64,000 bases of DNA from positions 2,480,001 through 2,544,000 of the forward strand of contig NZ_JAIQDI010000001.1 of assembly GCF_020034665.1 (NCBI RefSeq), read 5' to 3'. This document shows, one piece after another, positions 13,929 through 36,012 of this stretch (position 1 is its first letter; each line of letters starts with the position of its first letter). This DNA is from Niabella beijingensis. GTDB taxonomy: Bacteria > Bacteroidota > Bacteroidia > Chitinophagales > Chitinophagaceae. The translations under genes were made by a program, and so were the position numbers. The notes under the pieces were generated by a model. The model did not search any database. It was not told the DNA's origin and saw nothing but the letters and a program-made list of their open reading frames with translations.

Positions 13929-15797
13929 TCACCGGCCCATATACACCATCAGGATCTGTATATCACTCGGCTTGATGCCGGAGATCCTGCTGGCCTGGCC
14001 CAGGGTTTGTGGCCGGATACGGTTTAGTTTTTCCTTTGCTTCATTTCCCAGGGAATTAAGGCGGGAATAATCGAATCCCGGAGGGATGGAAAGATGCTCC
14101 ATCTCACTCATCCGGTTCACCAGCTCCTTTTCTTTTTCAATATAGGTTTCATACTTGGTAAGGATGGATGCCTGCTCCAGCTCTTCCTTTGTATAATTTT
14201 TTACCTGTTCTTTGAGAAAAGGTATGGCATCGATCAGGTGTTCCAGCTCCACATCCGGGCGTAATAATATCTTTTCCGCCTTTTGCCTTTCTGTAACAGG
14301 AGAAGAATTCAATGAGGTAAGATAACCGTTGATTTCTTCGGGTCTTAAGGCTATATCTTTCAAAAATGATCTGATATTGGCAACATTATCCATTTTTTGC
14401 CGGACATTATCCATTCTTTCTGAAGACGCCAGTCCTAATTGATGGCTGATCGGCGTCAGTCGTATATCCGCATTGTCCTGGCGAAGCAGGGTACGATACT
14501 CTGCCCTGGAGGTAAACATCCGATACGGTTCCTCGGTACCTTTATTGATCAGGTCATCAATAAGCACCCCGATATAGGCATCACTCCGCTTTAATGTGAA
14601 CGGATCGGCTTCCTTTGTTCCCAGGTGTGCGTTGATACCTGCCATGATTCCCTGACAGGCGGCCTCTTCATAACCCGTGGTTCCATTGATCTGACCCGCA
14701 AAATACAGATTACTTATTATTTTTGTTTCTAATGTGTTTTTAAGCTGCGTTGGGGGGAAATAGTCGTACTCAATCGCATACCCGGGCCGGAAAAACCGGA
14801 CATTTTCAAATCCTGGCACCATCCGTAATGCAGCGTACTGCACATCTTCCGGTAAAGAAGTAGAGAACCCGTTAACATAGATCTCCACGGTATTCCATCC
14901 TTCCGGTTCTACAAAAAGCTGGTGCCGTTCCTTGTCCGCAAAACGATTAATCTTGTCTTCAATACTCGGACAATACCGGGGACCCACCCCGTCGATCCTT
15001 CCGGCATACATCGGACTTCGATCAAATCCTGTCTTCAGCATATCATGTACTTTCTGATCAGTATAGGTGATCCAGCAGCAGCGTTGTTTTTCCGGGTCGA
15101 TCTTGGGAGTATCCGTAAAGGAAAAACCAACGATCGCATCATCCCCATCCTGTACTTCCATTTTGGAATAGTCCAGGCTTCTTCCGTCAACTCTCGGAGG
15201 TGTTCCTGTTTTTAACCGGTCGCTTTCAAACCCCAGGCTTACCAGCTGTTCAGTGATCCCGCTTGCAGCTTTTTCTGCCACGCGCCCACCACCAAACTGT
15301 TTTTCACCGATATGTATAATACCATTCAGAAAAGTTCCATTGGTTAGTACTACAGCTTTCGCCTTTATTTCATGTCCCAGGCCCGTGATCACTCCTGCCG
15401 CCCTCCCATCTTTTACCAACAATCCTTTTACCATATCCTGGTAAAAGTCAAGATTGGGTGTTTGCTCCAATAGTTCCCGCCATTTTGCAGCAAATAACAT
15501 GCGGTCGCTCTGCGCACGGGGGCTCCACATTGCCGGGCCCTTAGAACGGTTAAGCATCCGGAACTGGATCATGGATAAATCCGTAACAATACCCGAATAA
15601 CCGCCTAATGCATCAATTTCACGAACGATCTGTCCTTTTGCGATCCCACCCATTGCAGGATTACAGCTCATTTGTGCAATGGTCTGCATATTCATAGTTA
15701 CCAACAGGGTTTTTGATCCCATATTGGCGGCGGCAGCGGCAGCCTCACAACCGGCATGCCCTGCCCCAACAACAATTACATCATACTCTGGAAACAT
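13929..15797 (-). CDS. mnmG: tRNA uridine-5-carboxymethylaminomethyl modification enzyme MnmG (GidA)
   Basis: 622 residues, full length for the family. FAD-binding Rossmann motif VVGAGHAGCEAA near residue 10, the conserved CNPAMGGIAKGQIVREIDALGG segment, and the C-terminal GidA region with helical domain ending in RISGIKPSDIQILMVYMGR. With MnmE it installs the cmnm5 group on U34 of certain tRNAs, using FAD, NADH and methylene-THF. In many bacteria gidA lies close to the origin; here four parS sites follow immediately upstream and an origin candidate lies 7 kb away. Confidence 0.97.
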   Translation of the reverse strand: MFPEYDVIVVGAGHAGCEAAAAAANMGSKTLLVTMNMQTIAQMSCNPAMGGIAKGQIVREIDALGGYSGIVTDLSMIQFRMLNRSKGPAMWSPRAQSDRMLFAAKWRELLEQTPNLDFYQDMVKGLLVKDGRAAGVITGLGHEIKAKAVVLTNGTFLNGIIHIGEKQFGGGRVAEKAASGITEQLVSLGFESDRLKTGTPPRVDGRSLDYSKMEVQDGDDAIVGFSFTDTPKIDPEKQRCCWITYTDQKVHDMLKTGFDRSPMYAGRIDGVGPRYCPSIEDKINRFADKERHQLFVEPEGWNTVEIYVNGFSTSLPEDVQYAALRMVPGFENVRFFRPGYAIEYDYFPPTQLKNTLETKIISNLYFAGQINGTTGYEEAACQGIMAGINAHLGTKEADPFTLKRSDAYIGVLIDDLINKGTEEPYRMFTSRAEYRTLLRQDNADIRLTPISHQLGLASSERMDNVRQKMDNVANIRSFLKDIALRPEEINGYLTSLNSSPVTERQKAEKILLRPDVELEHLIDAIPFLKEQVKNYTKEELEQASILTKYETYIEKEKELVNRMSEMEHLSIPPGFDYSRLNSLGNEAKEKLNRIRPQTLGQASRISGIKPSDIQILMVYMGR

Positions 15798-15882
15798 GGG
15801 TGCAAAATTACACCATTCCTTTTTATAAGCCTTATTCCGGATACCTTTAACAACGATCAGTAGGAATGCGCTGGAATTTTAT

Positions 15883-15898
15883 TGTTCCACGTGGAACA
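15883..15898. promoter_or_regulatory. parS site 1
   Basis: TGTTCCACGTGGAACA, a perfect 16-bp palindrome; 15 or more positions agree with the widely conserved ParB-binding site (consensus TGTTNCACGTGAAACA or its complement). Confidence 0.9.
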
Positions 15899-16005
15899 AT
15901 AAAATACTAGGCGGGGACAACAGATCAAATAAATACACAAAGGTTGAGTAACACCAATAATTCAATATTTAAAAGAAGAAATTTAAAGTGCTACAAACAA
16001 TCAGC

Positions 16006-16021
16006 TGTTCCACGTGGAACA
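16006..16021. promoter_or_regulatory. parS site 2
   Basis: TGTTCCACGTGGAACA, identical to site 1, 107 bases further on. Confidence 0.9.
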
Positions 16022-16148
16022 CTTCTTTTAATATCTATTACACAGAACCCACTGAAATCCGCGATATCAAACATCTTTCACCTAAAATAACTTATACCGC
16101 TCCAGGCAAACAATTCAACAACTACAATCAAATCCGAATTCAACTCTA

Positions 16149-16164
16149 TGTTCCACGTGAAACT
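16149..16164. promoter_or_regulatory. parS site 3
   Basis: TGTTCCACGTGAAACT, one terminal base away from the canonical site. Confidence 0.85.
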
Positions 16165-16481
16165 GATATGAATATCTTATCATCAAATGCAGGTCCCATC
16201 AAATGAGTAGCACTAATAAAAAAACACTCCCATCATCAACCCAATTTCTGTTAATTGTATTTCGGCCTACTATACTTTCACTCTCAGTTGGCCGATCGGC
16301 TATTCAGGGAACTCTGCAAGAATATTAATTACTAATTGATTCTATAATAAACGAAGCCTCAGCATTGCTGAATCCAATACTGCACCTGTAAATACCATCA
16401 AAAAGTTGTTTAAATGCATTTTCCTGTTTTCATAGCTATCAGCCCGGTTGAATACCCCCCAGCCCTTATCATTTGAATCAC

Positions 16482-16497
16482 TGTTCCACGTGAAACA
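16482..16497. promoter_or_regulatory. parS site 4
   Basis: TGTTCCACGTGAAACA, exact match to the canonical bacterial parS. It ends 3 bases before the stop of ybeY. Confidence 0.92.
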
Positions 16498-16500
16498 CAG

Positions 16501-16941
16501 CTAAAATCCATACCTGATCAGGTATTCATCCTCTTTGCGTCGCATTACCTGTTGTTCTTCAGCTGTTTTATCATTAAATCCGCACAGATGAAGCGCCCCG
16601 TGGAATATTACCCGGTGCAATTCCCTGAAAAAGGGCTCATTCAGCAGTCTGGCGTTCGAGCGGACCGTATCCACACTGATAAATATATCCGCCATCATAG
16701 GTTCTGCCAATTTCTCTCGTAGATCAAAGGTTATAATATCTGTATAATAATCATGCTCCAGGTATTGCCGGTTCACGCGCAAAATCTCATCATCCCCACA
16801 AAAAATATACTGCAACATATCCAGCTCCTGCTTGTTTTCTTTAAATATGAGGCTAATGAACTGTTTCAGTCGTTTCCTCTCTTTAAGTGTTGCTGCTTTC
16901 TGGAAGGAGAATGTTACCTGGGATATCTGTTTCATTATCAT
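16501..16941 (-). CDS. ybeY: Endoribonuclease YbeY (rRNA maturation factor)
   Basis: 146 residues with the zinc-binding signature HRVIFHGALHLCGFND (H-x3-H-x5-D type) near residue 110-125, and the upstream TDIITFDL motif. YbeY is a metal-dependent single-strand endonuclease needed for 16S rRNA 3'-end maturation and 70S quality control. ATG codons at 16941 and 16935 are both possible. It is divergent from feoA, 53 bases apart. Confidence 0.95.
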   Translation of the reverse strand: MIMKQISQVTFSFQKAATLKERKRLKQFISLIFKENKQELDMLQYIFCGDDEILRVNRQYLEHDYYTDIITFDLREKLAEPMMADIFISVDTVRSNARLLNEPFFRELHRVIFHGALHLCGFNDKTAEEQQVMRRKEDEYLIRYGF

Positions 16942-16994
16942 TATTTTTCAAAATTCGTAAATAAAACACAACCTACAATAGTTAGATTTGCAAG

Positions 16995-17237
16995 ATGGAA
17001 CAAGAAAAAGAATTGCTGCTCTCCGATCTCAAACCGGGACAGCGTGCACGAATACAAAAGTTCACAACAGAAGAGATTTTTCTGAAACTGATGGAAATGG
17101 GTTGTCTTCCCGGGGAAGAGATCGAAATAATAAAAGTTGCTCCTTTAAATGATCCCATATCTATATCTGTAGCAGGTTATACCCTCAGCCTTCGCCTGGA
17201 TGAGGCCCGTTTCATTGTTGTACATGATGTAAACTAA
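16995..17237 (+). CDS. feoA: FeoA family small SH3-like protein
   Basis: 80 residues forming a single FeoA/SH3-like domain (LKPGQRARIQKF, LMEMGCLPGEEIEIIKVAPLNDPISISVAGYTLSLR). FeoA helps the FeoB ferrous iron transporter, but no feoB is adjacent; the next gene is nadD, 6 bases downstream. A TAGATTTG -7-like box (16983-16990) ends only 4 bases before the ATG, so the mRNA may be nearly leaderless. Confidence 0.88.
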   Translation: MEQEKELLLSDLKPGQRARIQKFTTEEIFLKLMEMGCLPGEEIEIIKVAPLNDPISISVAGYTLSLRLDEARFIVVHDVN

Positions 17238-17243
17238 GCTCCT

Positions 17244-17816
17244 ATGAACATAGGCCTGTTTTTTGGTTCATTCAATCCCATTCATCACGCACACCTGATC
17301 ATTGCCAATCATCTTCTTAATGAAGAGTTGGTAGAAAAGATCTGGTTCATTGTTTCTCCGCATAACCCGCTAAAAGAAACCGCATCACTTCTTAACGAGA
17401 AGCAGCGTCTTCATCTTACCAGGCTGGCAGTTGACCAGGATACCCGGATGTATGTTTCCGATATTGAGTTTACTCTGCCACGCCCCTCCTATACTTCCGT
17501 AACATTAGCACATCTCACAGAAAAATACCCACAGCATCAGTTCTTTCTTGTATTGGGTGGTGACAGTTTTCAAAATATACAGAAATGGAAGAATTATGAT
17601 TATATATTAAATAATTTTAAAATATTAATATATAACCGCCCAGGTTTTACAATAAATGCCGGTATTTCTGAAAATATAAAGATTGTTGATGCTCCATTGC
17701 TCCAACTCTCGGCCACCGCCATCCGCCAGCTGATCAAAGCAAGAAAATCCGTCCGGTACCTACTACCGGATACAGTAATGGAAGAAATTGAAAAATCCGG
17801 TTACTACCGGAAATAA
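17244..17816 (+). CDS. nadD: Nicotinate-nucleotide adenylyltransferase NadD
   Basis: 190 residues with the nucleotidyltransferase signature [11 protein letters not shown] at the N-terminus and the C-terminal [21 protein letters not shown] segment matching the family ISSTxIR motif. It transfers AMP from ATP to nicotinate mononucleotide, the penultimate step of NAD synthesis. It shares an operon with feoA and its 3' end overlaps the convergent chrA by 13 bases. nadA, the pathway entry enzyme, lies 5 kb away. Confidence 0.95.
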
Positions 17817-19039
17817 CCCAGCAGCAGGCAAAGTAACACCAGCACCGGTGCCGGAAGTTTGGTAAAGATCAGTACTACAGAAGTACCCGCCACCACAAGA
17901 AGATCTGTTATATCAATTCCCGAAGCCTTAAAGATCTCCAGGTCCTTCATAATATACACTGTAGAACCCATCATAATTCCCATCACGGCGGCATTAATCC
18001 CCTCAAGGGAACGATAGATCGCAGAATATTTTTTCAACATATTCCAAATCGGGAAGAAAAAAAGCACCAGCAAAGCGCTGGGTAAAAAAATACCAACCAT
18101 CCCGATAACAGCTCCCAGCACCTGCATGCCCGCACCCATATCCTTTAATGCCAGTCCGCCGGTGTACGATGCGATTGAAAAAACGGGCCCCGGCATGGCA
18201 CGCACCATTCCGATCCCTGTAAGCATCTCTCCTTTATCGATCCTTATTGCATTCGGGTTCTTTATCTTAACCTCATCCGGCCGAACACTATACTGCTCAT
18301 ACATAATCGGCATCAGTACATTTCCTCCCCCGAATACAAGACTCCCCATACGATAATTATTTTCAAACAGGTTCACCGGTTTCCTGTAGGTCCACTCATT
18401 CTTCCGGGCCATTTCACTAAAAATACCTGCAAGCACAAACAGGATAGCAAAAAGCCAGATGTTCCACCACTGGATCTTACCGGGCTTCACCGCAACCTGG
18501 GGAATTCTTTTCTTACTCAGATTGGTAATGATCCCACCCACCACAATCAGCACAGGAACAATAAATGGTCTTCCAAAAAACAAAAATGTAACAAAACCCG
18601 CAATCAGGGCTATCGCCAGCGTAATGGTATTATTTACAGAGTAAGGAAAAGCAGCGACACAGGCATAGATCAAAAATCCCGCGGCCATTGGCACAATAAA
18701 ACGAAAAATATTCAGACTATCTGCCGTATTCAGATAATTTACCAGAAAAGAAAGTCCCCCCATAATCGTACAAGCCGGAAGAATCCATACCAGCAACGTT
18801 AATACAGCAAGTGGAATACCTCCCCTCTTAAACCCAATCAGCGTCAGTGTTTGCGTGGAAGAAGCGCCGGGAAGCAACTGGCAGAAAGCATTATACTCCA
18901 TCAACTCCTTTTCGGTGATATAAGGTGTCTGCTTTACAAAAGTTTTCATCATCATCGCCAGATGCGCCTGAGGTCCGCCAAAAGCTGTTAAGCCATGCAG
19001 CAATACCAGTTTTAAAAAATGTAAATGCCTCAGCAACAT
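17804..19039 (-). CDS. chrA: Chromate transporter family protein ChrA (two fused CHR domains)
   Basis: 411 residues with about ten to twelve hydrophobic segments in two homologous halves. The first half carries [11 protein letters not shown] and the second [11 protein letters not shown] followed by [16 protein letters not shown]. This is the long-chain CHR form. Proteins of the family export chromate in characterised cases, but many members have untested roles, so specificity is by homology only. Confidence 0.9.
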
Positions 19040-19163
19040 TTTCTGTCAATTCAATGATTCAGTTCCTGTAAGTTCCCTGATAAAAATATACAAAAACGAC
19101 CAACGATAAAACTTTCCGTAAAAGTTACTACTTTTAAACAACACAGAAACAAATAATCCGACA

Positions 19164-20069
19164 ATGCTTCGCCTATCAGTGTTTTTTATTCTGTTGCTCC
19201 ATATAGCAGTATCCCATGCACAATCCACCGATAAAAAATTAACCGGGCTTATCCGGAATACAATTCAGGGATTCCACGGTACCATCGGTATCTATGTAAA
19301 AAATCTGAAAACAGGAAAAACCGTTGAAATAAACGCAGACACGATCTTTCCCACTGCAAGCATTGTAAAAGTTCCGATCCTTATCGGCATTATGGATAAA
19401 ATAACAACCGGGGCTTATACCTATGACTCCACCTTTACCTACAGCGATTCTCTTTATTATGCAGGTGAAGACATTCTAGGTGAATTTAAAAATGGCGGCA
19501 GGATCCGTTTACAGAAACTGATGATGCTCATGCTTACCACCAGTGATAACACAGCGAGCCTCTGGCTGCAACAACTTGCGGGCACGGGAACAAGAATCAA
19601 CACCCTGCTGGACAGCCTGGGCTACGCAGCCACAAGAGTAAACTCCAGAACGCCCGGCAGGCGGGCTTTTCAGATCGAGAACGGCTGGGGCCAAACCACT
19701 CCCAGGGACATCGCCAATATCCTGGAAGCCATCTATAAAAATAAAATTTATACAGCTGCTGCCTGTGAGCGCATGCAGCGTTGTCTGGGTCGCAATCTTT
19801 GGGACACGGATGAAGCCCTGTCGCAGGTACCGCCTTATATTGAAGTATTCAGTAAAAACGGCTGCGTAGATGGCAGCCGCAACGAGATCCTCCTGGTAAA
19901 CGCACCAAACCAGCCGTATATCTTCAGCATCTTTACAAAAAATAACAAGGATACCAGCTGGCTTCATGAAAATGAAGCATGGATACTTACCAGAAACTTA
20001 TCCGCGCTTTTATGGCACTATTTTGAACCGAAAGATAAATGGGTAAAACCCGCTTATGCCGGGTTTTAA
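19164..20069 (+). CDS. Class A beta-lactamase-like serine hydrolase
   Basis: 301 residues with a signal peptide (ending HAQS). Penicillin-recognising motifs are present: active-site Ser-x-x-Lys as ASIVK, the SDN loop as TSDNTA, and KNG (FSKNGCVDG) in place of the usual KTG/KSG. In the omega-loop area a WGQTTPRD segment corresponds to the common RDTTTP. The catalytic Glu166 equivalent is probably in the QIENGWGQ segment but cannot be fixed by eye. It may be a true beta-lactamase or a related periplasmic esterase. Its stop overlaps the convergent fabG stop by 4 bases. Confidence 0.85.
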   Translation: MLRLSVFFILLLHIAVSHAQSTDKKLTGLIRNTIQGFHGTIGIYVKNLKTGKTVEINADTIFPTASIVKVPILIGIMDKITTGAYTYDSTFTYSDSLYYAGEDILGEFKNGGRIRLQKLMMLMLTTSDNTASLWLQQLAGTGTRINTLLDSLGYAATRVNSRTPGRRAFQIENGWGQTTPRDIANILEAIYKNKIYTAAACERMQRCLGRNLWDTDEALSQVPPYIEVFSKNGCVDGSRNEILLVNAPNQPYIFSIFTKNNKDTSWLHENEAWILTRNLSALLWHYFEPKDKWVKPAYAGF

Positions 20070-20821
20070 ATATTGAGCCCGCCGCAAACACTGATCGTTT
20101 GCCCGGTAATATACGATCCCATATCAGAAGCAAGAAACAAAGCTGCATTAGCAATATCTTCTGTCTTTGCAAATTTCCCCAATGGGATATCTGTCAGGTA
20201 TTTGGCTGCACTGTCTCCCTCATGTAAATAACTCGTCATATCAGTTTCTACAAAACCCGGTGCAATTGCGTTACACCGGATGTTACGGCTTCCCAGTTCT
20301 TTCGCCATACTTTTTGTAAACCCAATAATACCCGCCTTACTGGCTGCATAACTTGCCTGGCCGGCATTTCCCATTACTCCAATAACCGAACTCATATTGA
20401 TGATGCTACCGGACCTGGCTTTCATCATAGGTTTTATAATCTGTTTGGTCATATAAAAAACACTGTTCAGATTTACCTGAAGCACAGATTCCCATTGCTC
20501 CGGTGTCATACGTAATAACAGATTATCTTTAGAGATCCCCGCATTATTCACACAGATGTCAACCGTTCCGAATTCTTTCAACACTTCTGCAACAAAGGTT
20601 TCACAGGCAGCAAGTTCTCCTGCATTACTTTTCCAGGCCTTGATGCGTATACCTTTGCTGGTCCATTTATTTACCAGTGCATTTGCTTTATCCGTACTGC
20701 TGTCGCTTACATAAGAAAAAGCGACAGCAGCGCCCTGCTCTGCAAATTTTTCAACAATCGCTTCTCCAATTCCGCGCGCCGCACCGGTTACTATGGCAAC
20801 TTTATTCTCCAGTAATTTCAT
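20066..20821 (-). CDS. fabG: 3-oxoacyl-[acyl-carrier-protein] reductase FabG
   Basis: 251-residue short-chain dehydrogenase: cofactor motif TGAARGIG near residue 12, NNAGIS, the catalytic Ser/Tyr/Lys (NMSSVIG and YAASKAG), and PGFVETDM. Length and motifs fit FabG, which reduces beta-ketoacyl-ACP with NADPH in fatty-acid elongation. It is not in a fab cluster here, so a different SDR substrate cannot be excluded, but the overall resemblance to FabG is strong. Confidence 0.9.
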   Translation of the reverse strand: MKLLENKVAIVTGAARGIGEAIVEKFAEQGAAVAFSYVSDSSTDKANALVNKWTSKGIRIKAWKSNAGELAACETFVAEVLKEFGTVDICVNNAGISKDNLLLRMTPEQWESVLQVNLNSVFYMTKQIIKPMMKARSGSIINMSSVIGVMGNAGQASYAASKAGIIGFTKSMAKELGSRNIRCNAIAPGFVETDMTSYLHEGDSAAKYLTDIPLGKFAKTEDIANAALFLASDMGSYITGQTISVCGGLNI

Positions 20822-20898
20822 AAAACAAATGGTTTAACAGCTGCAAATAAAGTTAATTATTTTGTTACAATAAAGTTTAATAAAGAATTGCCAGCAGT

Positions 20899-22095
20899 TC
20901 AACGTTTCTCCAGAAAATAAATCACTCCGTTTTTATCATCGCTAATAAAAAAGGACTTTCTGTTCCACTGCAAAATGTCACAGGGTCTTCCATAGCGCTT
21001 ATTCTCTGTTGTACCCTGCAGGAAACCGGAAACCAGTTCCCTGTAAGCTCCCCCCGGAAGCAATTGCACAATCGCGTTGCCCCGTTGCCTCCATACACTG
21101 GTGCTCCCATGCAGCGCTACCAGAAAAGAATTATTTAAAAGCGGATCATCAAAGCCAGTAACGTATTCAAACCCCAATGGTGCTGAATGGGCCTTAAATC
21201 CATAAGGCGCTACCGGTGGCTTACGTGCAAAATCAGGTCGCCTGACTTTTATAAATTGCGTGTCGGCAATAATTGTTTTCCGGTATTGATAATAATACGG
21301 CCAACCGTAAAACCCGTTTTCCACAACCGTATGAAATAATTCCTCTGGTTTATCCGGCCCCCTGTTATCCCTGCCCATATGCGTTACCCATAAATTGTCA
21401 TTCACCCATTTAATACCGACTGCATTGCGGATCCCCCTGGCGAAAATTCTTTTATTACTTCCGTCCGGATCCATTTCCAATATAACAGCCCGGACATCTT
21501 CCTTCTCCACACATGCATCACAACTGCTGCCAACACTTACATAAATCTTGTCATTTTTAAATACAATACTTCTTGTAAGGTGCCAGCCACCATACTTATA
21601 ACTCAAACCATAATCCGGGAATGTAGCAATTACTACAGGTTCTCCCACAGCCACTGAATCACCCGCATTGTATTTATAATAACTCAGCTTACCGGTCTCG
21701 GCCACATATATATAAGTTTGTCCATTCTTTGTATAAAAGGCAACCTGGTTGGGATTGTGTAAATCCTTTAAAAAAGTAGTGCGCTTTGCAAATGTTTTTG
21801 TATCCGCATTCCACTTATCCAAAACCACTACCCTTCCCTTTTTATTGTCGCTGCGATTGTGCATATCTGTAACAAACAACCTGCCATCCGGGCTCTTTGC
21901 AAAAAAGCGCGGCCGCTCCAATCCTTCTGCTGCTATGCTTATCTGATAGCCTGCCGGTATTCTAAGCGGAAAAGTAAGTCCTTTTGTCAGCGAAATTTTC
22001 TGGCTGGTCCATTCCACCTTTTTTTGTGAAACAGCGGCTAACGGCAGCAATATCCACAAACCTGCAATAGCAATAAAGGAAGAAAGTTTTTTCAT
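20899..22095 (-). CDS. Exported glucose/sorbosone dehydrogenase-like beta-propeller protein
   Basis: 398 residues with a signal peptide (MKKLSSFIAIAGLWILLPLAAVSQ). The body matches the PQQ-type glucose/sorbosone dehydrogenase propeller family: LFVTDMHNRSDNKKGRVVVL, VGSSCDACVEKEDVRAVILEMDPDGSNKRIFARGIRN, and WVTHMGRDNRGPDKPEE. Family members oxidise sugars in the periplasm with PQQ, although many Bacteroidota copies have no demonstrated activity. It lies 16 bases downstream of nadA in the same direction and may be cotranscribed. Confidence 0.83.
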   Translation of the reverse strand: MKKLSSFIAIAGLWILLPLAAVSQKKVEWTSQKISLTKGLTFPLRIPAGYQISIAAEGLERPRFFAKSPDGRLFVTDMHNRSDNKKGRVVVLDKWNADTKTFAKRTTFLKDLHNPNQVAFYTKNGQTYIYVAETGKLSYYKYNAGDSVAVGEPVVIATFPDYGLSYKYGGWHLTRSIVFKNDKIYVSVGSSCDACVEKEDVRAVILEMDPDGSNKRIFARGIRNAVGIKWVNDNLWVTHMGRDNRGPDKPEELFHTVVENGFYGWPYYYQYRKTIIADTQFIKVRRPDFARKPPVAPYGFKAHSAPLGFEYVTGFDDPLLNNSFLVALHGSTSVWRQRGNAIVQLLPGGAYRELVSGFLQGTTENKRYGRPCDILQWNRKSFFISDDKNGVIYFLEKR

Positions 22096-22111
22096 TTAAA
22101 GGTATAAAAGG

Positions 22112-23125
22112 CTACAATCCAGCAGCAGCGCTTATTTCAAGCATCCGGTCAATGGGTTTCTTTGCTGCGAGCCTTAATGACTCATCCATAATAATATCCG
22201 GCATTTCATACTTCATACAGAGATATACTTTTTCAAGCGTATTCCGTTTCATGTGCGGACAGTCATTACAGGCACAGCTGTTGTCCGGCGGGGCAGGTAT
22301 AAAGGTCTTATCCGGACTTGCCTTTTCCATCTGATGGAGGATACCGGTTTCAGTAGCAACAATATATTCCCTGGCACTGTCCTCCCGGGTGTACTTCAGC
22401 AATCCCGTTGTAGAGCCGATATAGTCCGCCATCCGCAGCAGTGGTTCTTCGCATTCCGGATGTGCGATCAGCTTTGCCTCCGGATGCTGATGTTTCAATC
22501 GTGTTATTTTTTCAAGACTGAATATTTCATGTACCATGCAGGCACCATTCCACAACAACATGTTCCTGCCGGTCACTTTGTTGATATACGCGCCCAGGTT
22601 CTTGTCGGGTGCAAAAATGATCTTCTGGTCTTTTGGGAAACTTTCTACAATGATCCGTGCATTGCTGCTGGTAACGATCACATCGCTGAGCGCCTTGATG
22701 CCGGCGCTGCAGTTGATATAGCTTACCACCACATGATCCGGGTGCTGTTCCTTAAATTTCTGGAACAAAGGGGGCGGGCAGCTGTCGCTGAGTGAACATC
22801 CGGCTTTGAAATCCGGGATCACGACTTTCTTTGCCGGGTTCAGTATCTTGGCGGTCTCCGCCATGAAGTGCACGCCGGCAAAAACGATCATGTCTGCGTT
22901 CGTCTTCTGGGCCTCCTGCGCCAGTCCGAGGCTGTCACCGATGTAATCCGCTATGTCCTGAATGTCCGGCTCCTGGTAGTAGTGCGCCAGGATTACGGCG
23001 TTTTTCTCTTTTTTCAATTTTTCAATCTCTGCAAAGAGATCCAGTTGCGGATCTACTTCCACATCCAGGAACCCTTTCAGATCCAGATCATTTTTTGCCG
23101 CTTCAGGAATTTGAACGTCCATCAT
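22112..23125 (-). CDS. nadA: Quinolinate synthase NadA
   Basis: 337 residues. The three cysteine regions expected to bind the 4Fe-4S cluster are visible ([21 protein letters not shown], and the C-terminal [22 protein letters not shown]). [18 protein letters not shown] at the N-terminus is the family signature. It condenses iminoaspartate and DHAP to quinolinate. The start is the ATG at 23125 or 23122. The upstream side opens directly into the origin candidate. Confidence 0.96.
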
Positions 23126-23264
23126 TGAAAAAATTTTGTACCTGCAATGATACGATCAACACAAATAAAAAATCAAAGTTTTTTAAAACAGCCCTTTTTT
23201 CTTTTAATAATATTTATATTAATTAATTATTTAAAATAACCTATTATTATTATGGCTGTGGATT

Positions 23265-23287
23265 CGTGGATAACTCACTTATCCACG
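23265..23287. promoter_or_regulatory. Inverted pair of DnaA boxes
   Basis: CGTGGATAA and TTATCCACG form a perfect 9-bp inverted repeat separated by 5 bases. Each is one base from the TTATCCACA consensus. This tight head-to-head pair is the densest part of the DnaA-box cluster. Confidence 0.75.
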
Positions 23288-23552
23288 AAAATTATTTTTT
23301 TGTGAATCGGGTTTATCCACTGTTTTATAACAGATATTCACATCATGAAGTTACGAATCTTATAGATCATAGCCGTTTTTCAACAAAATTGTGAATTACA
23401 CAATGTTTAAAAAAAACTAAAGACATATTAAATTTACACTATGTTAATATTAGCGGTATAAAATCGCTGCTGTGCACCTGATTTAGAAAAACCGGGTGCA
23501 ATGTCAAAACTTTCAGCCAGTAATACATTTCACATACACGTTCCACGGCCGG

Positions 23553-23561
23553 TTATTCACA
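23553..23561 (+). promoter_or_regulatory. DnaA box (exact TTATNCACA)
   Basis: TTATTCACA matches the consensus at all fixed positions; a near copy, TAATTCACA, follows 12 bases later in the same orientation. Confidence 0.7.
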
Positions 23562-23707
23562 TTGTTTAGCCGTAATTCACAGGGTATTGGGGACAAATAA
23601 TGGTATCCGTGCGACTTATTTTGTATCTAATATTTAAAAACGAATGTATGTAAGCAGTGAAAATTGAACTATCTTTCGCGCCTTAACAGGTGTAAATAAT
23701 GATTTGT

Positions 23708-25861
23708 ATGAAAAAATGGATGGTTCTGCTTATCGGGATCTTAACAATCGGATTTGCAAAGGCTGATGAGGGTATGTGGTTACCACAATTCCTTGAAAAT
23801 CTCAATGAAAAACGCATGCAGCAGCTGGGGATGAAGCTGACTGCAAAAGATATCTATTCCATAAATAAAGGCAGCCTGAAAGATGCGATCGTAAGTTTCG
23901 GGGGGTTCTGTACCGGCGAGGTGGTTTCGGAAAAGGGACTGGTACTTACCAATCATCACTGTGGATTTGAATCCATACAGAAACATTCCACGCTTGACAA
24001 AAATTATATAAGAGATGGATTCTGGGCGCGTAACCAGACGGAGGAACTGCCCAATGCGGGTTTGTATGTAACCTTTATAGTAAGGATCGATGATGTATCC
24101 GCGCAGGTATTAAAAGGTGTAGAGCCCGGTATGATGGAAAATGAGCGGCAGAGCAGGATCGACCGGAATATTAATGAATTAAAGAAAACCACAGTGTTGG
24201 GCGATTTTGAAAACGGGTTTGTAAGTCCGTTTTTTGACGGCAATAAATATTACCTGTTTATAACAGAAACTTTTAATGATGTACGCCTGGTGGGCGCACC
24301 ACCTTCCAGTATCGGCAATTTCGGGCAGGACTCGGATAACTGGATGTGGCCCCGGCATACAGGCGATTTCAGCGTGTTCCGGATCTATGCCGGAAGAAAT
24401 AATAAACCCGCCGCCTATTCACCGGATAATGTACCCTATATTCCCAAAAAAGCGCTTACCATTTCACTCAAGGGAATGAAACAGGATGATTTTACCATGA
24501 TCTTCGGTTTTCCGGGACGTACTACTGAATATCTTCCCAGCGAGGCCGTGCAGCAGATCGTATCCGTAAATGATCCGGCAAAGATAATGGTACGGGACCA
24601 GGCACTGGCTGTTATGAAGCGCTATATGCGTGCTGATGAAGGATTGAAAATAAAATACGCTTCAAAATATGCTGGTATTGCCAATGCATGGAAGAAATGG
24701 CAGGGTGAGGTACTGGGCCTTACCCGGACCGGAGGCGTACAAAAAAAGCTGGATTATGAAGCGGCCTTTACCCAACGGCTGAATGCAGATAATAATTTAA
24801 AAAACCGGTACGGAACTGTTCTTCAGGATCTGAACAGTGCTTATAAGGACATAAAGCCTTTCGGACTTACAAGAGATTATTATCTTGAAACGATCAGTAA
24901 GATCGAATTATTTGTTATCATAAACCGGTTGCGTACGCTGAAAGCTGCCACGGGTAAACCTAATTACGAAAAAGAATATGCTGCAGCCCGGGATAAGCTC
25001 ACTGAACTGTATAAAAATCTCAGCCCCACAGTGGACCGGGATATTTTTGCCGCGTTATTGCCCGTTTACATAGAAAAACAGGATCCGGCCTTTATTGCAC
25101 CTGTGGCAAAACAGCAGTTTGAACAATATGGAAAAAATTACCAGCAATGGGCCGCTGCCCTGTATGGTAATAGTGTTTTTCTGGATTCAGCAAAAGTAAT
25201 GGAAGCGATAAAAACGGACCCATCCGCTCTTTACGCTCTTTTTGATACCGACCCGGCAGCACAGCTGGTTTCCGGTATGGCAGCATTGTATGACACCGGG
25301 ATCACACCAAAGCTCAATGAACTGCAGGCACGTATCAACGGGCTGCAGCGCAGCTATATGCAGGCTCAGATGGAAGTACTGACCGATAAAAAATTTTACC
25401 CGGATGCCAACAGCACCCTGCGGGTGGGTTTTGGAAAAGTTGACGGGTATTATCCCGCAGATGGTATAAAATATGATTATTATACGTATCTGTATGGCGT
25501 TATGGAAAAATATGTACCGGGGGATTATGAATTTGATGTGCCGGAAAAACTGCGGCAATTGTACCGCAAAAAGGATTATGGCCGTTATGGCACAAATGGA
25601 AAAATGCCGGTATGCTTTATTGCATCCAATCATACCACAGGAGGAAACAGCGGCAGTCCTGCGCTGGATGCCCATGGCAACCTGGTAGGGATCAATTTCG
25701 ACCGGGTATGGGAAGGCACCATGAGTGATGTGAATTATGATGCATCCATCTGCCGCAACATCATGGTAGACATCCGTTATGTGTTATTTATTATTGATAA
25801 ATATGCCGGAGCCGGTCATCTGATCAGCGAAATGAAATTAACCGGCGGTTCCGGAAGATAA
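23708..25861 (+). CDS. S46 family dipeptidyl-peptidase, DPP11-like (Asp/Glu-specific)
   Basis: About 717 residues with a signal peptide (MKKWMVLLIGILTIGFAKA). Chymotrypsin-like catalytic elements: TNHHCGF for His, a HTGDFSVF segment for Asp, and GGNSGSPALDAHGNLVGINFDRVWE for Ser. The Arg in NFDRVWE corresponds to the residue that gives DPP11 its preference for acidic P1 residues; DPP7 has Gly there. The enzyme would release dipeptides from oligopeptide N-termini in the periplasm. ATG 23708 is preferred to 23699 because it gives a standard signal peptide. It directly borders the origin candidate. Confidence 0.92.
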   Translation: MKKWMVLLIGILTIGFAKADEGMWLPQFLENLNEKRMQQLGMKLTAKDIYSINKGSLKDAIVSFGGFCTGEVVSEKGLVLTNHHCGFESIQKHSTLDKNYIRDGFWARNQTEELPNAGLYVTFIVRIDDVSAQVLKGVEPGMMENERQSRIDRNINELKKTTVLGDFENGFVSPFFDGNKYYLFITETFNDVRLVGAPPSSIGNFGQDSDNWMWPRHTGDFSVFRIYAGRNNKPAAYSPDNVPYIPKKALTISLKGMKQDDFTMIFGFPGRTTEYLPSEAVQQIVSVNDPAKIMVRDQALAVMKRYMRADEGLKIKYASKYAGIANAWKKWQGEVLGLTRTGGVQKKLDYEAAFTQRLNADNNLKNRYGTVLQDLNSAYKDIKPFGLTRDYYLETISKIELFVIINRLRTLKAATGKPNYEKEYAAARDKLTELYKNLSPTVDRDIFAALLPVYIEKQDPAFIAPVAKQQFEQYGKNYQQWAAALYGNSVFLDSAKVMEAIKTDPSALYALFDTDPAAQLVSGMAALYDTGITPKLNELQARINGLQRSYMQAQMEVLTDKKFYPDANSTLRVGFGKVDGYYPADGIKYDYYTYLYGVMEKYVPGDYEFDVPEKLRQLYRKKDYGRYGTNGKMPVCFIASNHTTGGNSGSPALDAHGNLVGINFDRVWEGTMSDVNYDASICRNIMVDIRYVLFIIDKYAGAGHLISEMKLTGGSGR

Positions 25862-25920
25862 TCCAACGTAAAAATTTGTATATTTAAGTATTCTATTGAT
25901 CCACCTTAAAACTTTTTTTC

Positions 25921-26256
25921 ATGGTAAACAACAAACACATCGCCACTTTTATATTGGGAGCCCTGGCCGGGCTGGCTGCAGGAAAATATACCAGTATGAG
26001 CGAGGAAGAGAAGGAAAAGATGATGAATAACCTGAAGGAAAAAGCAAACAAACTGAAAGACGATGCTTCAAAGTCTGCAGAGCAGGCCAAGGATTATTTT
26101 TCAGAGCTTGCCACAAAGGGAATGGATACACTGAAGGAGCATTTTCCCGGCGCAGAAAAATGGATGAATGACCTTTTTGGAAATAAAGGTGACGAAAATA
26201 AAACGGCAGATACGGGCACAGCAGATACTGCAGAAGGCACAAAACCCGGTGTGTAA
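25921..26256 (+). CDS. YtxH-like small membrane-anchored protein
   Basis: 111 residues: an N-terminal glycine-rich hydrophobic segment (ATFILGALAGLAAGKY) followed by a long charged helix with Lys/Glu/Asp heptads, then a polar Thr/Ala/Glu tail. This matches YtxH-domain proteins, often stress associated, of unknown mechanism. It stands alone and ends before a strong terminator. Confidence 0.78.
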   Translation: MVNNKHIATFILGALAGLAAGKYTSMSEEEKEKMMNNLKEKANKLKDDASKSAEQAKDYFSELATKGMDTLKEHFPGAEKWMNDLFGNKGDENKTADTGTADTAEGTKPGV

Positions 26257-26290
26257 TATTGTAACAGACATTGCTGCCAACGAAATTGAA

Positions 26291-26325
26291 TGTACAGAAG
26301 GATGCATCCTTCTGTACATTTTTAT
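26291..26325 (+). terminator. Intrinsic terminator after the YtxH-like gene
   Basis: A perfect 28-bp palindrome (26291-26318; half-site TGTACAGAAGGATG) followed by a run of five T. Perfect symmetry with no separate loop is unusual; in RNA the central bases would form the loop. Confidence 0.85.
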
Positions 26326-26388
26326 TATAAGTATATTTGAAGGATTTTTGTAATGAACCTTTAATATAATTCATATCGTCTTACCGGT

Positions 26389-27693
26389 ATGCAAAACAAC
26401 CTGTTTAAAAAACTTGGGCAACATTTGTCGGGTCTTTATGGTTTTCTGGCGGGAGATGCCGGCGGCACTACACTTGAGGTCCGTATATTTAATACCATCT
26501 GCCTCCTTGGAATTATCATCTGTGCCTACAATATTCCGTTCAATTTTTATGTAGGACTGGATTTTACCGCCTGGGTTTTTTCAGGGTTAACCCTATTGCT
26601 GTTCCTGCTGTACTATCTTTCCCGGTTCCGGCAACAATACCGCTACAGCATCACCCTTATCTCGGTTCTTTTCATCGGGTTGTTTGTATGGAATTATTTT
26701 TACAGTGATGGGATCAGAGGCGCCAGCCTGCTTTCCTATACCTTGTTATTTTTCCTGCTGATGATTATTGCTCCAAAAAAACAGTATCTTCTCTGGTTCC
26801 TGCTGGTAACTGGTGCCACCTGGGGAAATATGCTGTATGAACTGTATCATCCTGCTTCGGTAAAACAGACCTATACAGATCTTAAGGCCATCATTATCGA
26901 TCATGGATCAACGGTGACCATCAACCTGGTGGTGCTGTTTGCGGGATTGTATTATCTGAAAGAAGCGTACTACCGGGAGCGGAGAAAAACCGCCGCCAGC
27001 ACGAAGGTGCTGAAGGAAATGGACCAGCAAAAAACCAAGCTCTTTTCTGTTTTATCACATGATCTCCGTTCGCCGCTGCATTCGATTTCGGCTTACCTGG
27101 AAATGGTTCAATCAGACACACTTTCGAAAGAAGAGCGCCTGGAAACAGAACGGCTGCTTTCCACCGCGGTGCATCATACACAGGAACTGCTTAATAATAT
27201 GCTTTCCTGGTCGAAGGATCAACTGCGTAAAACGGCGCCGGAACTGCACCGTCAGACTATTGCTTCGGTCATTCAGCCCACATTGGTTTTATTTGAGCCC
27301 GAAGCGCAACGAAAAAAAATAAGATTTACCAGGAACATTGATCCCTCGGTTACCGCACTGATCAACGCGTCTATGCTGCAGATCATTGTTCGTAATCTTA
27401 TGGGCAATGCCATAAAGTTTACCCATCCCGGTGGTCATATCATTATTACCATAACAGGCGATGAAGCGCACGCACTGATTATGATAAAAGATACCGGGCG
27501 GGGAATAAAAAAGGAACTGCGACAACAGCTCTTTTCGCTGAATACCGGTTCTACTTATGGCACGCTTAATGAAAAGGGTGTTGGATTGGGCTTATATCTT
27601 TGTAAAGAATATACCCTGGCTCAGAACGGAAGGATCTGGTTTGAGACCGAAGAAGAAAAGGGAACTACATTTTTTGTACAACTGCCGGTATAG
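26389..27693 (+). CDS. Membrane sensor histidine kinase
   Basis: 434 residues. About six hydrophobic segments occupy residues 30-195 with only short loops, so signals are likely sensed within or at the membrane. A HisKA region follows with phospho-acceptor His in FSVLSHDLRSPLHSISAY (about residue 222), then a complete HATPase_c: NLMGNAIKFTHPGG (N box), IKDTGRGI (G1) and GVGLGLYLCKEY (G2). No response regulator is adjacent, so it is an orphan kinase. The 3' end is 10 bases from that of the convergent NUDIX gene. Confidence 0.93.
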   Translation: MQNNLFKKLGQHLSGLYGFLAGDAGGTTLEVRIFNTICLLGIIICAYNIPFNFYVGLDFTAWVFSGLTLLLFLLYYLSRFRQQYRYSITLISVLFIGLFVWNYFYSDGIRGASLLSYTLLFFLLMIIAPKKQYLLWFLLVTGATWGNMLYELYHPASVKQTYTDLKAIIIDHGSTVTINLVVLFAGLYYLKEAYYRERRKTAASTKVLKEMDQQKTKLFSVLSHDLRSPLHSISAYLEMVQSDTLSKEERLETERLLSTAVHHTQELLNNMLSWSKDQLRKTAPELHRQTIASVIQPTLVLFEPEAQRKKIRFTRNIDPSVTALINASMLQIIVRNLMGNAIKFTHPGGHIIITITGDEAHALIMIKDTGRGIKKELRQQLFSLNTGSTYGTLNEKGVGLGLYLCKEYTLAQNGRIWFETEEEKGTTFFVQLPV

Positions 27694-27703
27694 CGGCTGA
27701 AAA

Positions 27704-28411
27704 CTATAATACATTATTGGGATTCGGAACCAGCTTCAGGATCTTATGCAAATGTTGCTGATAGTTCTTACGGTCCAGCTTGTAAAAATAAGCGCCTTTT
27801 TTAGACCCGGTTTTATCCTTGTCGCGCTGTTTCAGAAGCAGTCCAGTGGAGAGCATTTTACGGCTGAAGTTTCCTTTATCAAAGCTGGTCTCATACACAT
27901 CTTCAAAAAGGCTTTGTAAAAGCGGCAGGGTAAATTTGTCGGGCAGCAGCTCAAACAGGATGGCATGGGAAGTCGCTTTATATTGCAATCTTTTTTTTGC
28001 CATCTTCACCATCTCCTTATGGTCAAAAATAAGATCCGGGAAATCCTTTATCGAAAACCATTCAGCCTGGTAGGCATCGCTCAGCGATTCCCTGTATTTT
28101 TTTATATCGATCAGTGAAAAATAAGCAATCGAAACGGTACGCTCCTGTGTATCCCTGTCCGGGTCGGTAAACGTATAGAACTGCTCCTGGTAAACATCTG
28201 TAAGACCGGTCAATGACACGAGGATACGGCTTGCAGCCTCATCGGCACTTTCATTTTTTGAAATAAAGCCTCCCATCAGACTCCACTTTCCCTTTAGCGG
28301 GGCAAAGGCACGTTTCACCAGCAATATCTTCAGATGGTTTCCATCGTATCCAAACACGATGCAATCCACGGCTACGGTATAACGCGACTGATTACTGTAT
28401 TTTGCTGCCAT
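27704..28411 (-). CDS. NUDIX-fold transcriptional regulator (NrtR/AraR-like), catalytically degenerate
   Basis: 235 residues from ATG 28411 (an upstream ATG at 28447 is less likely). Residues about 10-140 form a NUDIX domain; the rest is a winged helix typical of NrtR-type regulators (FTLPLLQSLFEDVYETSFDKGNF). The NUDIX box is damaged: the core REUxEE is replaced by RILVSL, so hydrolysis is unlikely and the domain probably senses a nucleotide or sugar. Bacteroidota members of this type regulate sugar or NAD genes. The target is unknown; nadA and nadD in the same window are a speculative link. Confidence 0.85.
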   Translation of the reverse strand: MAAKYSNQSRYTVAVDCIVFGYDGNHLKILLVKRAFAPLKGKWSLMGGFISKNESADEAASRILVSLTGLTDVYQEQFYTFTDPDRDTQERTVSIAYFSLIDIKKYRESLSDAYQAEWFSIKDFPDLIFDHKEMVKMAKKRLQYKATSHAILFELLPDKFTLPLLQSLFEDVYETSFDKGNFSRKMLSTGLLLKQRDKDKTGSKKGAYFYKLDRKNYQQHLHKILKLVPNPNNVL

Positions 28412-28497
28412 AAAAAAAGTGTGTTTTTTCGGTGGTATAATTTTCAAAATGACAATTAATAATGTTCCGGAGCAAATGTATGGTTTGTTACAGGAAT

Positions 28498-28528
28498 AAA
28501 AAAAACCCGTTTCAAACGGGTTTTTTTT
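28498..28528. terminator. Bidirectional terminator downstream of rho
   Basis: AAACCCGTTT-C-AAACGGGTTT hairpin flanked by A and T runs of eight. It follows the rho stop by about 20 bases on the minus strand. Confidence 0.85.
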
Positions 28529-28546
28529 ATTTGGGGGGTATGTATT

Positions 28547-30253
28547 TTATGAATTCATGCTTGCGAGGAATTCTTCATTGCTTTTTGTACCCTTCATGCG
28601 GCGGAGTAATTCCGTCATTGCTTCTTCTGTTTTCATATCTGCCAGGTATACGCGCAGCAGGTTCATGCGTTGCAGTACGTCCCGGTCCAGCAGCAGGTCA
28701 TCCCTTCTGGTAGAAGATGCAGTAAGATCAATAGCCGGATAAACCCGCTTATTGGAGAGTCTTCTGTCCAGCTGCAGTTCCATGTTACCGGTTCCTTTAA
28801 ATTCTTCAAAAATCACTTCGTCCATTTTGCTTCCGGTATCGATCAGCGCTGTTGCCAGGATGGTTAAAGAACCGCCGTTCTCGATCTTACGTGCAGCACC
28901 AAAGAATTGTTTGGGTTTTTGCATGGCATTGGCTTCCACACCACCACTCAATACCTTACCGGACGCCGGTGATACGGTATTGTGTGCACGTGCCAGACGT
29001 GTGATGGAATCCAGCAGGATCACTACGTCATGACCGCATTCTACCAGCCGTTTTGCCTTTTGCAATGCAACGGTAGAAACCTTAACGTGTTTCTCCGCAG
29101 GCTCATCAAAAGTAGAAGCGATTACTTCTGCCTTTACGCTGCGCTCCATATCAGTAACCTCTTCCGGGCGTTCATCCACCAGTACTACCATCAGGTAACA
29201 TTCCGGATGGTTTTCGGCAATGGCATTGGCCACTGCCTTTAACAACATGGTCTTACCCGTTTTGGGCTGTGCCACGATCAGTCCGCGCTGTCCTTTACCA
29301 ATGGGAGTAAACAGGTCGATGATCCTTGTAGACAGATCAGAAGGGCGGGTGAACAGGTTTAGTTTTTCGTAGGGGAATAAGGGGGTGAGGTAATCGAACG
29401 GAACACGGTCTCTTACCTCATCCGGTTTTTTACCATTGATGGTATCCACTTTCAGGAGGGCAAAATATTTTTCTCCTTCCTTTGGAGGACGTACGGCACC
29501 ATGAATGGTATCCCCTGTTTTTAAGCCAAATAATTTTATCTGTGACGGAGATACATAAACATCGTCCGGGCTTGAAAGGTAGTTGTAATCTGAAGAGCGA
29601 AGGAATCCATAGCCGTCCGGCATCATTTCCAGCACCCCTTCACTCAGGATAACACCGTCGAACTCCACGTTAAAGGAGGGACTGTTAAAGGAAGTGCTCT
29701 GATCTTTTTTTGATGCGTATACTTTGTTTTCTACAGGGAACTCTGTTTCTTCTGCTACAGGAACTACCGGATTGTCGTACTTTTCGGTAGCCTTCAATGC
29801 CTGCAGAATAAAGGCTTCCGTGGCGGCATCTGTTTTGAAGACGGTTCCGGCACCATCTGTCGGAGCTTCAGTTTCCTCAGCAGCCGGTGCTTCTTTCACA
29901 ACCGGTTCTTCCTGTTCTTTCTTTGCCGGTGCTTTTTTCTTTTTAGGAGCTGCTTTTTTTGCTGCGGCTTTCTTTGCCGGTGCTTTGGTGGCTTTTTCAG
30001 CAGGTTCTTCATCTTTTCCTTCTTCTTCCACAAAAGCCTCTTCTGTTCCGATGGACGTAGTGGCTTTTACAATACGTTTTCTTTTGGGGCGTTCTCCGGA
30101 GGAAGCTTTTGATCCTGTTACAGCCTGACTGTCCAGGATTTTGTAGATCAGATCCTGTTTGTTTAATTTTTTGGCATTAGGGATCTTTAACTGTTCGGCA
30201 ATGTCTAACAGTTCAGGAACGAGCATATCGTTCAATTGTAAAATGTCATACAT
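28547..30253 (-). CDS. rho: Transcription termination factor Rho
   Basis: 568 residues, longer than the 420 of E. coli Rho. An N-terminal Rho_N (SAP-like) region is followed by a Lys/Ala/Glu-rich insertion (about residues 55-140, [15 protein letters not shown] type) usual in Bacteroidota. The RNA-binding domain then includes [13 protein letters not shown], and the ATPase domain has Walker [12 protein letters not shown] and the [13 protein letters not shown] segment. The hexameric helicase releases untranslated RNA from RNA polymerase. It is monocistronic with its own terminator. Confidence 0.97.
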
Positions 30254-30419
30254 AAATGTGCGGGATTAATCAAAAGATTAAATCTTAATGAGATAATTAA
30301 TTTGGTAAAGATTTTAAGTTTTTTGGATTGACAAATGATAATTGATATTATCATTCAGCAGAGATGATCATATGTTATAGGGTCATTTCCGTGACAAAAT
30401 TAGCACCTTTTAACTAAAA

Positions 30420-31508
30420 TCAAAAATTTTTAATAATTATCTCTCCGTTTTGGGTAATTCTTAACGGACTTTCGGGGAAGTCGCTGCTGCTCAAGTACTT
30501 TATGCGATGGCGGGCGGTTGCCGCGGTATCCAGGCGGGGTGTACGGTCGTTTCCGGGTAGCTGGATCGTGGAAATGATCCTCCCCCCGGTGAAGTCCCCG
30601 TTCTTATCCACTGTTATTTTCAGGATGGGCGCCCGGCCCAGCGGTCCGTTAAGACTAATGGAGCCGTAAGTGGCATAATTACCCAGACTATAAGCGATCA
30701 GCTTTTTTTTGTAGAGTTCAATCCCCCGGGTAACGTGGGGGCCGCTGCCCAGTACCAGGTCGGCGCCGGCATCGATACAGGCGCGGGCAAATGCATATAC
30801 ATTGCCCCTGTCCTCACCGTGGTAAAGCTCTTTTTGTTTCTGCACGTGCTCCATCGTTCCCCCCTCTGCACCGCCGTGAAAATAAACGATCACCAGGTCC
30901 GCACTGTCCTTTATGCGTTCGATCAGCCGGGCAACCGGCAAAGGGTGGCTGATGTGGAGGTGCCGCCAGCCAAATCCGGCGGTAACGATACCGTAACGGA
31001 TGCCGTTTTTGGTGATGATCCGGTGGGCCTGGTGGTGTTTGACCCCGGCAAAGCCGATACCGCTTTTTTTCAGCAGCGCCATGGTTTCGTCCAGCCCTTT
31101 GGCACCAAAGTCTCCGGAGTGGTTATTGGCAAGACTCAGGAAATCAAAGCCTGCATCCCTGAAATGCTTTTCAGCACCCGGCGGCATCCTGAAGGCATAG
31201 CAGTTTTTGGGATTGATGCATTTTTTTTCCGGTACAGGAGTGCTGGTGATCACCCCCTCCAGGTTGCCGATCAGGAAATCGCCCGACTTCAATGAGTCTG
31301 CCAGGGGCAGCAGGATGTTCCTTTTAGGCATCCGCAGTGTGTTCGGAAAGTCGGACCCAAGCATCATGTCTCCGACAGCAGTAATGGTAATCAGCCCCTT
31401 CTTCCCGGCAACCACCTCTTTTTGTTCAACAGGTGCTGCCGGCAAAGGATCCGGATCCTTACAGCCGGTGATAAAAAGGCCAGCGGTGATATAAAAAAGC
31501 AGTCGCAT
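30420..31508 (-). CDS. CapA family metallophosphatase-like lipoprotein
   Basis: About 362 residues starting MRLLFYITAGLFITGC, a lipoprotein signal; the longer frame to 31595 adds a leader with no signal peptide sense. The CapA/PgsA fold is marked by ITAVGDMMLGSDFPN, NLEGVIT, FDFLSLANNHSGDFG and YFHGGAEGG, all metal-ligand positions of calcineurin-like phosphoesterases. CapA takes part in poly-gamma-glutamate capsule synthesis elsewhere, but no capB/capC is nearby and the role here is unknown. Confidence 0.88.
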   Translation of the reverse strand: MRLLFYITAGLFITGCKDPDPLPAAPVEQKEVVAGKKGLITITAVGDMMLGSDFPNTLRMPKRNILLPLADSLKSGDFLIGNLEGVITSTPVPEKKCINPKNCYAFRMPPGAEKHFRDAGFDFLSLANNHSGDFGAKGLDETMALLKKSGIGFAGVKHHQAHRIITKNGIRYGIVTAGFGWRHLHISHPLPVARLIERIKDSADLVIVYFHGGAEGGTMEHVQKQKELYHGEDRGNVYAFARACIDAGADLVLGSGPHVTRGIELYKKKLIAYSLGNYATYGSISLNGPLGRAPILKITVDKNGDFTGGRIISTIQLPGNDRTPRLDTAATARHRIKYLSSSDFPESPLRITQNGEIIIKNF

Positions 31509-31636
31509 ATTGAATGTAAAGATAACCAGAAAGGCCGGAGAAACAGATCCCCCGTACCGGGGATATAACTGATGGAAGGAATGATGAAAAAGCATACAGC
31601 TCTTGTGATTATCTTTGCAGCTTAAGAAATAGCAAT

Positions 31637-33076: not shown

Positions 33077-33093
33077 AAAATAAGGGTCAGCAT

Positions 33094-33130
33094 AAAAAAG
33101 GGCAATATTTATTAAATATTGCCCTTTTTT
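33094..33130. terminator. Bidirectional terminator between asnS and the GH10-like gene
   Basis: AAAAAAGGGCAATATTTA and its complement form a long stem separated by very few bases, with A and T runs at the ends. It serves both convergent genes. Confidence 0.87.
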
Positions 33131-33131
33131 A

Positions 33132-34352: not shown

Positions 34353-34394
34353 AGTCTACAAATGTAGCCCAACCGTCTTTAATAAAAAACCTTG

Positions 34395-34853: not shown

Positions 34854-35039
34854 ATTTAGTTTTTTGCTTTTCTGAATAGGTGTTGCATGTATTATTTAAT
34901 ACATTTCTCTTGGTTTACTTTACTCCGGAAATTATAGAAAAAACCGGTACAAACAAACATTTGTGCTGTTTTTTAAAGAAACTTTGCTATTTCTTCAATA
35001 AAGATGGTTTGAACCGGTTTGTTTTGGAAATTTGCTGTT

Positions 35040-35930: not shown

Positions 35931-35970
35931 ATTTTTTTTGAATTAATTCCCTTTCAAATAAAAATATCCT

Positions 35971-35978
35971 TATTTTTG
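35971..35978 (+). promoter_or_regulatory. -7 box upstream of tRNA-Asn
   Basis: TATTTTTG fits TAnnTTTG and lies 34 bases before the tRNA. A -33 box is not clear. Confidence 0.55.
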
Positions 35979-36012
35979 CAACCCTTAATAGCGTATGCTG
36001 TTAGGAGCATAT

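Follow-up and report, generated by a model that had tools for sequence, protein, structure and literature searches.

A candidate chromosomal replication origin upstream of nadA in Niabella beijingensis

Where does the chromosome of Niabella beijingensis begin to replicate, and could it be in a short gap beside nadA? A preliminary description of this locus had proposed so, and we followed it up in a stretch of 64,000 nucleotides (hereafter the window, C1:2480001-2544000) and in related genomes. The genome that carries the window (G000) comprises 6,589,346 bases in three contigs; we treat the two large ones, C1 (3.83 Mb) and C2 (2.75 Mb), as the chromosome, joining the end of C1 to the start of C2, a join that is assumed, as suggested by the signs of the skew. 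The position of the gap, the switch in composition and the conserved elements described below were computed here. We consider it very probable that the gap, 23126-23698, is the chromosomal origin, oriC: the skew switch, parS, a far dif-like site, DnaA boxes and a conserved unwinding module agree with the original proposal.

The gap and its DnaA boxes

The gap is 573 bp long and gene-free, and its flanking genes are divergent, as previously described, with nadA on the minus strand at one side and a gene for a Dpp7-like peptidase on the plus strand at the other (we take Dpp7 to belong to peptidase family S46). An Rfam scan of 13000-34000 found no RNA. The neighbourhood contains the following features, among them mnmG/gidA, which does lie just beyond the parS cluster, where it had been placed:

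13929-15797, minus strand: mnmG/gidA, within 10 kb of the gap
15883-16497, no strand assigned: parS cluster of four copies (starts 15883, 16006, 16149 and 16482), the sole such cluster in the genome
22112-23125, minus strand: nadA, quinolinate synthase (462.8 bits with the NCBIfam NadA model, cut-off 294), the core-linked gene in relatives
23126-23698, no strand assigned: candidate oriC, intergenic between the divergent nadA and Dpp7-like (S46) peptidase genes
23699-25861, plus strand: Dpp7-like (S46) peptidase gene (662 bits, below the model cut-off of 1200), a neighbour that varies among relatives

At least seven DnaA-box-like 9-mers had been claimed for the gap, and seven sites indeed lie within one mismatch of TTATNCACA, against a mean of 1.32 in shuffled sequences, of which 1 in 2000 reached seven. 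Four 9-mers lie within one mismatch of TTATCCACA, a number seen in 0 of 2000 shuffles, and six relaxed boxes, T[TA]AT[CT]CAC, compare with 0.14 expected from the shuffle mean (again 0 of 2000). Elsewhere in the genome, no 560-bp interval with more than two relaxed boxes was found in 780 kb of sequence (about 12% of the genome, the window excluded), nor does the window contain a second box cluster comparable to that of the gap. The perfect head-to-head pair reported earlier is exact on both sides (23265-23273 and 23279-23287, with 5 bp between), an exact TTATTCACA is present at 23553-23561 as stated, and the AT-rich stretches are real: AT content is 70% over the whole gap and reaches 88% in the 50-bp intervals starting at 23180 and 23210. 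The elements of the gap are:

23180-23240, no strand assigned: candidate DNA unwinding element, AT-rich, adjoining the DnaA-trios on the nadA side
23257-23265, minus strand: DnaA box GAATCCACA, the closer to the trios, two mismatches from TTATCCACA
23265-23273, minus strand: DnaA box TTATCCACG, distal box of the core and left half of the head-to-head pair
23279-23287, plus strand: DnaA box TTATCCACG, right half of the head-to-head pair, kept only partly by relatives
23313-23321, plus strand: DnaA box TTATCCACT
23334-23342, plus strand: DnaA-box-like ATATTCACA
23390-23398, minus strand: DnaA-box-like TAATTCACA
23553-23561, plus strand: DnaA box TTATTCACA, a site mostly kept across the genus alignment
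23573-23581, plus strand: DnaA-box-like TAATTCACA, a site likewise mostly kept across the genus alignment

Skew, parS and dif around the circle

GC skew, which the preliminary description had put forward as a check, was sampled in 40 stretches of 20 kb (39 used, one overlapping the window being dropped) plus the window. On C1, skew is negative in each of the 15 stretches to the left of the window and positive in each of the nine to its right; on C2, it is positive in 9/9 stretches from 1 to 1.55 Mb and negative in 4/4 from 2.15 Mb, with a mid-zone of -0.026 at 1.75 Mb and +0.018 at 1.95 Mb. Under the assumed join there is thus one sign switch each way, and the switch from minus to plus falls at the gap, an outcome that favours the original proposal. 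Over a continuous stretch of 104 kb, the change point that fits best is at window coordinate 23580, though the raw cumulative minimum of the same stretch lies at 76652, beyond the window; inside the window, skew is -0.089 left of 23400 and -0.004 to its right, near zero and not positive. We attribute the raw minimum to a low-GC island with minus-strand genes, from about 47 kb of the window onward, because the best change point is at 23580 and the stretches far to either side keep their signs. The island distorts the local skew. It occupies 47000-64000 of the window, where GC is low (0.33-0.45 per 2 kb) and genes are mostly on the minus strand; it looks like a defence or mobile island, with Pfam matches in four of the nine proteins scanned (ABC-3C CTD10, DUF2326 and AbiEii among them).

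The skew of third codon positions, in 28 frames picked out of 73, is negative in all eight genes from mnmG to nadA (13929-23125), two of which are on the plus strand, and positive in 8/10 genes of 23699-38651. The direction of genes alone therefore does not account for the step. Further out the picture is mixed, with negative values in four of six genes on the left and three of four on the right (38663-46204).

Skew was also sampled in relatives. In the single-contig genome G008 the sign changes from the stretch at 3.32 Mb to the one at 3.42 Mb, nadA being at 3.377 Mb, and changes back between 1.00 and 1.25 Mb, where a dif-like site lies (1.07 Mb); a single stretch to the right of nadA is at -0.002. 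With two stretches per side in 10 further genomes, eight step up across nadA by 0.06-0.13, and the step is contrary in G115 (-0.099) and, slightly, in G170 (-0.021). The sampled stretches of G020 gave no clear skew pattern. At a finer scale, a step in the direction of an origin within about 5 kb is seen in 63 of the 70 loci with enough flank (among the best 80 of 586), a count confounded by gene direction. G115 stands apart: at C1:5.8-6.3 Mb of its assembly it has an exact core beside nadA, yet its skew runs the wrong way, exact parS is absent and the dif-like match is weak, for which an inversion, a misassembly or unusual biology are suggested options.

The parS cluster said to lie 7 kb away is there, with four sites at 15883-16497. 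Two of the four are perfect TGTTCCACGTGGAACA, all good parS sites of the genome are within 7.3 kb of the gap, and the only other place within two mismatches is a poor site at C2:1851459. Exact TGTTYCACGTGRAACA occurs in 9 of 14 genomes, at 16 sites that are all at most 10 kb from nadA (in G000 and eight of the 13 others); exact parS was not found in the remaining five (G004, G020, G085, G170 and G115).

A dif-like sequence, TATAATTTATATTATGTTAA, occurs exactly and once each in 11 of the 14 genomes, and compared with the corresponding segment of E. coli dif in the available excerpt of PMC3025954 it has two differences in 20 positions. In G000 it is found at C2:1690627, which places it 0.459 of the circle away from the gap with the contigs joined as assumed and 0.363 with the alternative join; there is also a one-mismatch match at C1:1982043. 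The distance between the dif-like site and nadA is 0.43-0.49 of the circle in 9 of the 11 single-contig genomes having a site, a count that includes G136 and G144 by sites with one and two mismatches, respectively. The two other sites are off the opposite position, at 0.31 (G049) and 0.22 (G085) of the circle, and G115, the twelfth single-contig genome of the comparison, lacks a usable dif-like site. A first dif pattern gave 30 matches against 49 for its reversed control, and so did no better than the control, and only the candidate also resembling E. coli dif was kept; a second one gave 34 matches within two mismatches in the 14 genomes and 22 with the reversed control, whose mismatch levels were not given.

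An unwinding core that accompanies nadA

According to the available excerpt of PMC8287927, a basal unwinding system (BUS) consists of one or more DnaA boxes, a spacer of at most 16 bp and three or more trios whose middle base is A. All these elements are present at 23240-23273, where the nadA strand reads two abutting DnaA boxes, a spacer, four DnaA-trios and then AT-rich DNA:

23240-23273, minus strand: core resembling a basal unwinding system (two DnaA boxes, spacer and DnaA-trios), with one match in the genome
23253-23256, minus strand: spacer GCCA, 4 nt
23241-23252, minus strand: four DnaA-trios, TAA TAA TAA TAG (trios as defined in the excerpt of PMC8287927)

In an alignment of 15 gaps (14 from the 17 same-genus genomes, the window's included, and one from another genus), the sequence kept on the reverse strand is, with some variation, TTATCCAC-N-AATYCACA-NNNN-TAATARTAATAG. 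The earlier emphasis on the head-to-head pair must accordingly be shifted: the pair is exact, but what is conserved is the box pair with its trios.

To follow the core outside the genus we used the closest relatives of nadA in public genomes, that is the best 80 of 586 confirmed loci minus three with too little upstream sequence; many of these 77 loci are titled Chitinophagaceae, and some only Bacteroidetes or Sphingobacteriales. Among the best 80, nadA identity is 92-93% to four Niabella records and 83% to N. ginsengisoli. A strict expression of the core matches within 1 kb upstream of nadA in 58/77 loci, against three matches in the remaining 709,956 bases of these loci, and the other 19 loci have degenerate cores on reading. 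With a weight matrix trained on 53 loci, each training row being left out in turn when scored, the nadA upstream region of every one of the 77 loci scores higher than any of 2,323 background segments (5.3 bits for the lowest locus, 0.5 for the highest background).

Allowing three mismatches, the core pattern is found in 76 of 147 family genomes, once in each (the reversed pattern gave one match), and has no match at that threshold in the other 71. In 69 of the 76 the match sits 38-171 bp from the aligned nadA start, on the nadA strand, and these placements cover 53 genera; distances fall in two classes, 38-73 bp and 117-171 bp. As for the other seven, nadA is on a different contig in three genomes and was not found in four (G048, G145, G159 and G163), where the origin may have outlived its partner gene. 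The constant partner of the core is nadA rather than the peptidase, since an S46 gene is a neighbour within 3.5 kb in just 36 of 100 loci (by tblastn, some genomes being counted twice). Outside the family, in a class-wide search with three mismatches and four family rows set aside, the core was rare, being found in 4 of 154 genomes, and the reversed control gave a single match.

A distant dnaA, alternative readings and known origins

The preliminary description also stated that dnaA is absent, which is true of the window only: the genome carries it at C2:379409-380797 (520 bits, cut-off 343.9), and with the assumed join about 1.71 Mb separate it from the gap. In 11 single-contig genomes dnaA and nadA are 0.74-3.0 Mb apart, and in G006 they share a contig at a distance of about 1.6 Mb. 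The gap thus lacks the adjacency to dnaA that is usual, and not required, for oriC. One could then argue that its boxes form a DnaA-titrating or regulatory site, either similar to datA, which titrates DnaA, or a DnaA-controlled nadA promoter, and that the true origin is elsewhere, for example beside dnaA; the fixed position of the core 5' of nadA is what one would expect of a promoter element. We find this very unlikely. The 20 kb around dnaA contain two relaxed boxes, 17 kb apart, with one ATATCCACA in the 400 bp upstream of the gene, and skew does not change sign there (it is positive in the stretch that starts at C2:370001 and in the sampled stretches on either side), whereas skew, parS and dif put the origin at the gap. 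Moreover, DnaA-trios next to AT-rich DNA are expected of an origin and not of a titration site, and the core is retained in the four genomes where nadA was not found.

Skew reflects long-term history, and both the step and the boxes could also be the remains of a former or minor origin, the active one having moved nearby, within some 50 kb. Locally the picture is indeed blurred by the low-GC island (47-64 kb) and by a raw minimum that falls at 76652. Still, the core is intact, strongly conserved and the single match in its genome, and the window offers no other comparable cluster of boxes; we give this possibility even less weight than a titration site. Our reading remains that the gap is oriC.

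By analogy with other bacteria, DnaA binding, strand opening and helicase loading would then occur in the gap. DnaA from the distant gene would bind the box cluster, and the abutting boxes (23257-23273) would guide it onto the DnaA-trios (23241-23252) of the nadA strand. There it would stretch this strand and open the AT-rich DNA toward nadA, probably including the promoter or leader of the gene. Helicases would load and two forks depart, one through nadA, parS and mnmG and the other through the S46 gene, to meet near the dif-like site at C2:1690627.

The module resembles the BUS of Bacillus subtilis (DnaA-boxes #6/#7 and DnaA-trios), as far as the excerpt of PMC8287927 describes it, in its tandem boxes, a spacer of at most 16 bp, three or more A-centred trios and an AT-rich neighbour, and differs in being placed just upstream of nadA rather than next to dnaA. 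The trios here read TAA and TAG, while the consensus in that excerpt is 3'-GAT-5', that is TAG. The E. coli origin, which lies between gidA and mioC (excerpt of PMC10225481), is likewise apart from dnaA (excerpt of PMC8287927), and gidA/mnmG is within 10 kb of our gap; in contrast, the neighbour here is nadA, and the module is clear whereas the BUS score of E. coli is relatively weak according to the same excerpt of PMC8287927. Origins predicted by DoriC and Ori-Finder rely on the same features, namely skew minimum, DnaA boxes, trios and dif, in the portion of PMC10225481 available. We found no earlier report of an oriC on the nadA side in Chitinophagaceae or Niabella in the openly licensed literature searched. 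The kind of origin is therefore already known, and what is new to the papers searched is its family-wide, nadA-anchored place apart from dnaA.

Chitinophagaceae, a large family, would thereby gain an origin anchored on sequence, the core upstream of nadA. The assemblies of G008 and G144 start at dnaA (bases 468 and 25), 1.3 and 0.7 Mb from the predicted origin, so that any growth rate from read depth, study of strand bias or genome rotation based on dnaA as the start of replication would go astray in these two genomes. The gap is also a small origin candidate on which replicating plasmids could be built, and it naturally raises the question of what keeps an origin beside one gene once it has separated from dnaA. 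A speculative answer, which we consider improbable, is that a coupling between origin opening and NAD synthesis holds the module upstream of nadA, and that initiation responds to NAD supply. DnaA on the core might gate nadA transcription or, alternatively, transcription through the AT-rich element might help or hinder opening.

Two minor observations can be added. Just upstream of nadA, at 23143-23153, TGCAATGATAC is near-invariant across the genus alignment; reversed, it resembles what we take to be the Bacteroidota -7 promoter element, and from its sequence it may be a promoter element or a regulator site. Further along the window, at 28547-30253, Rho is 568 aa long, and the 413-position model covers its residues 4-566, which leaves about 150 extra residues.
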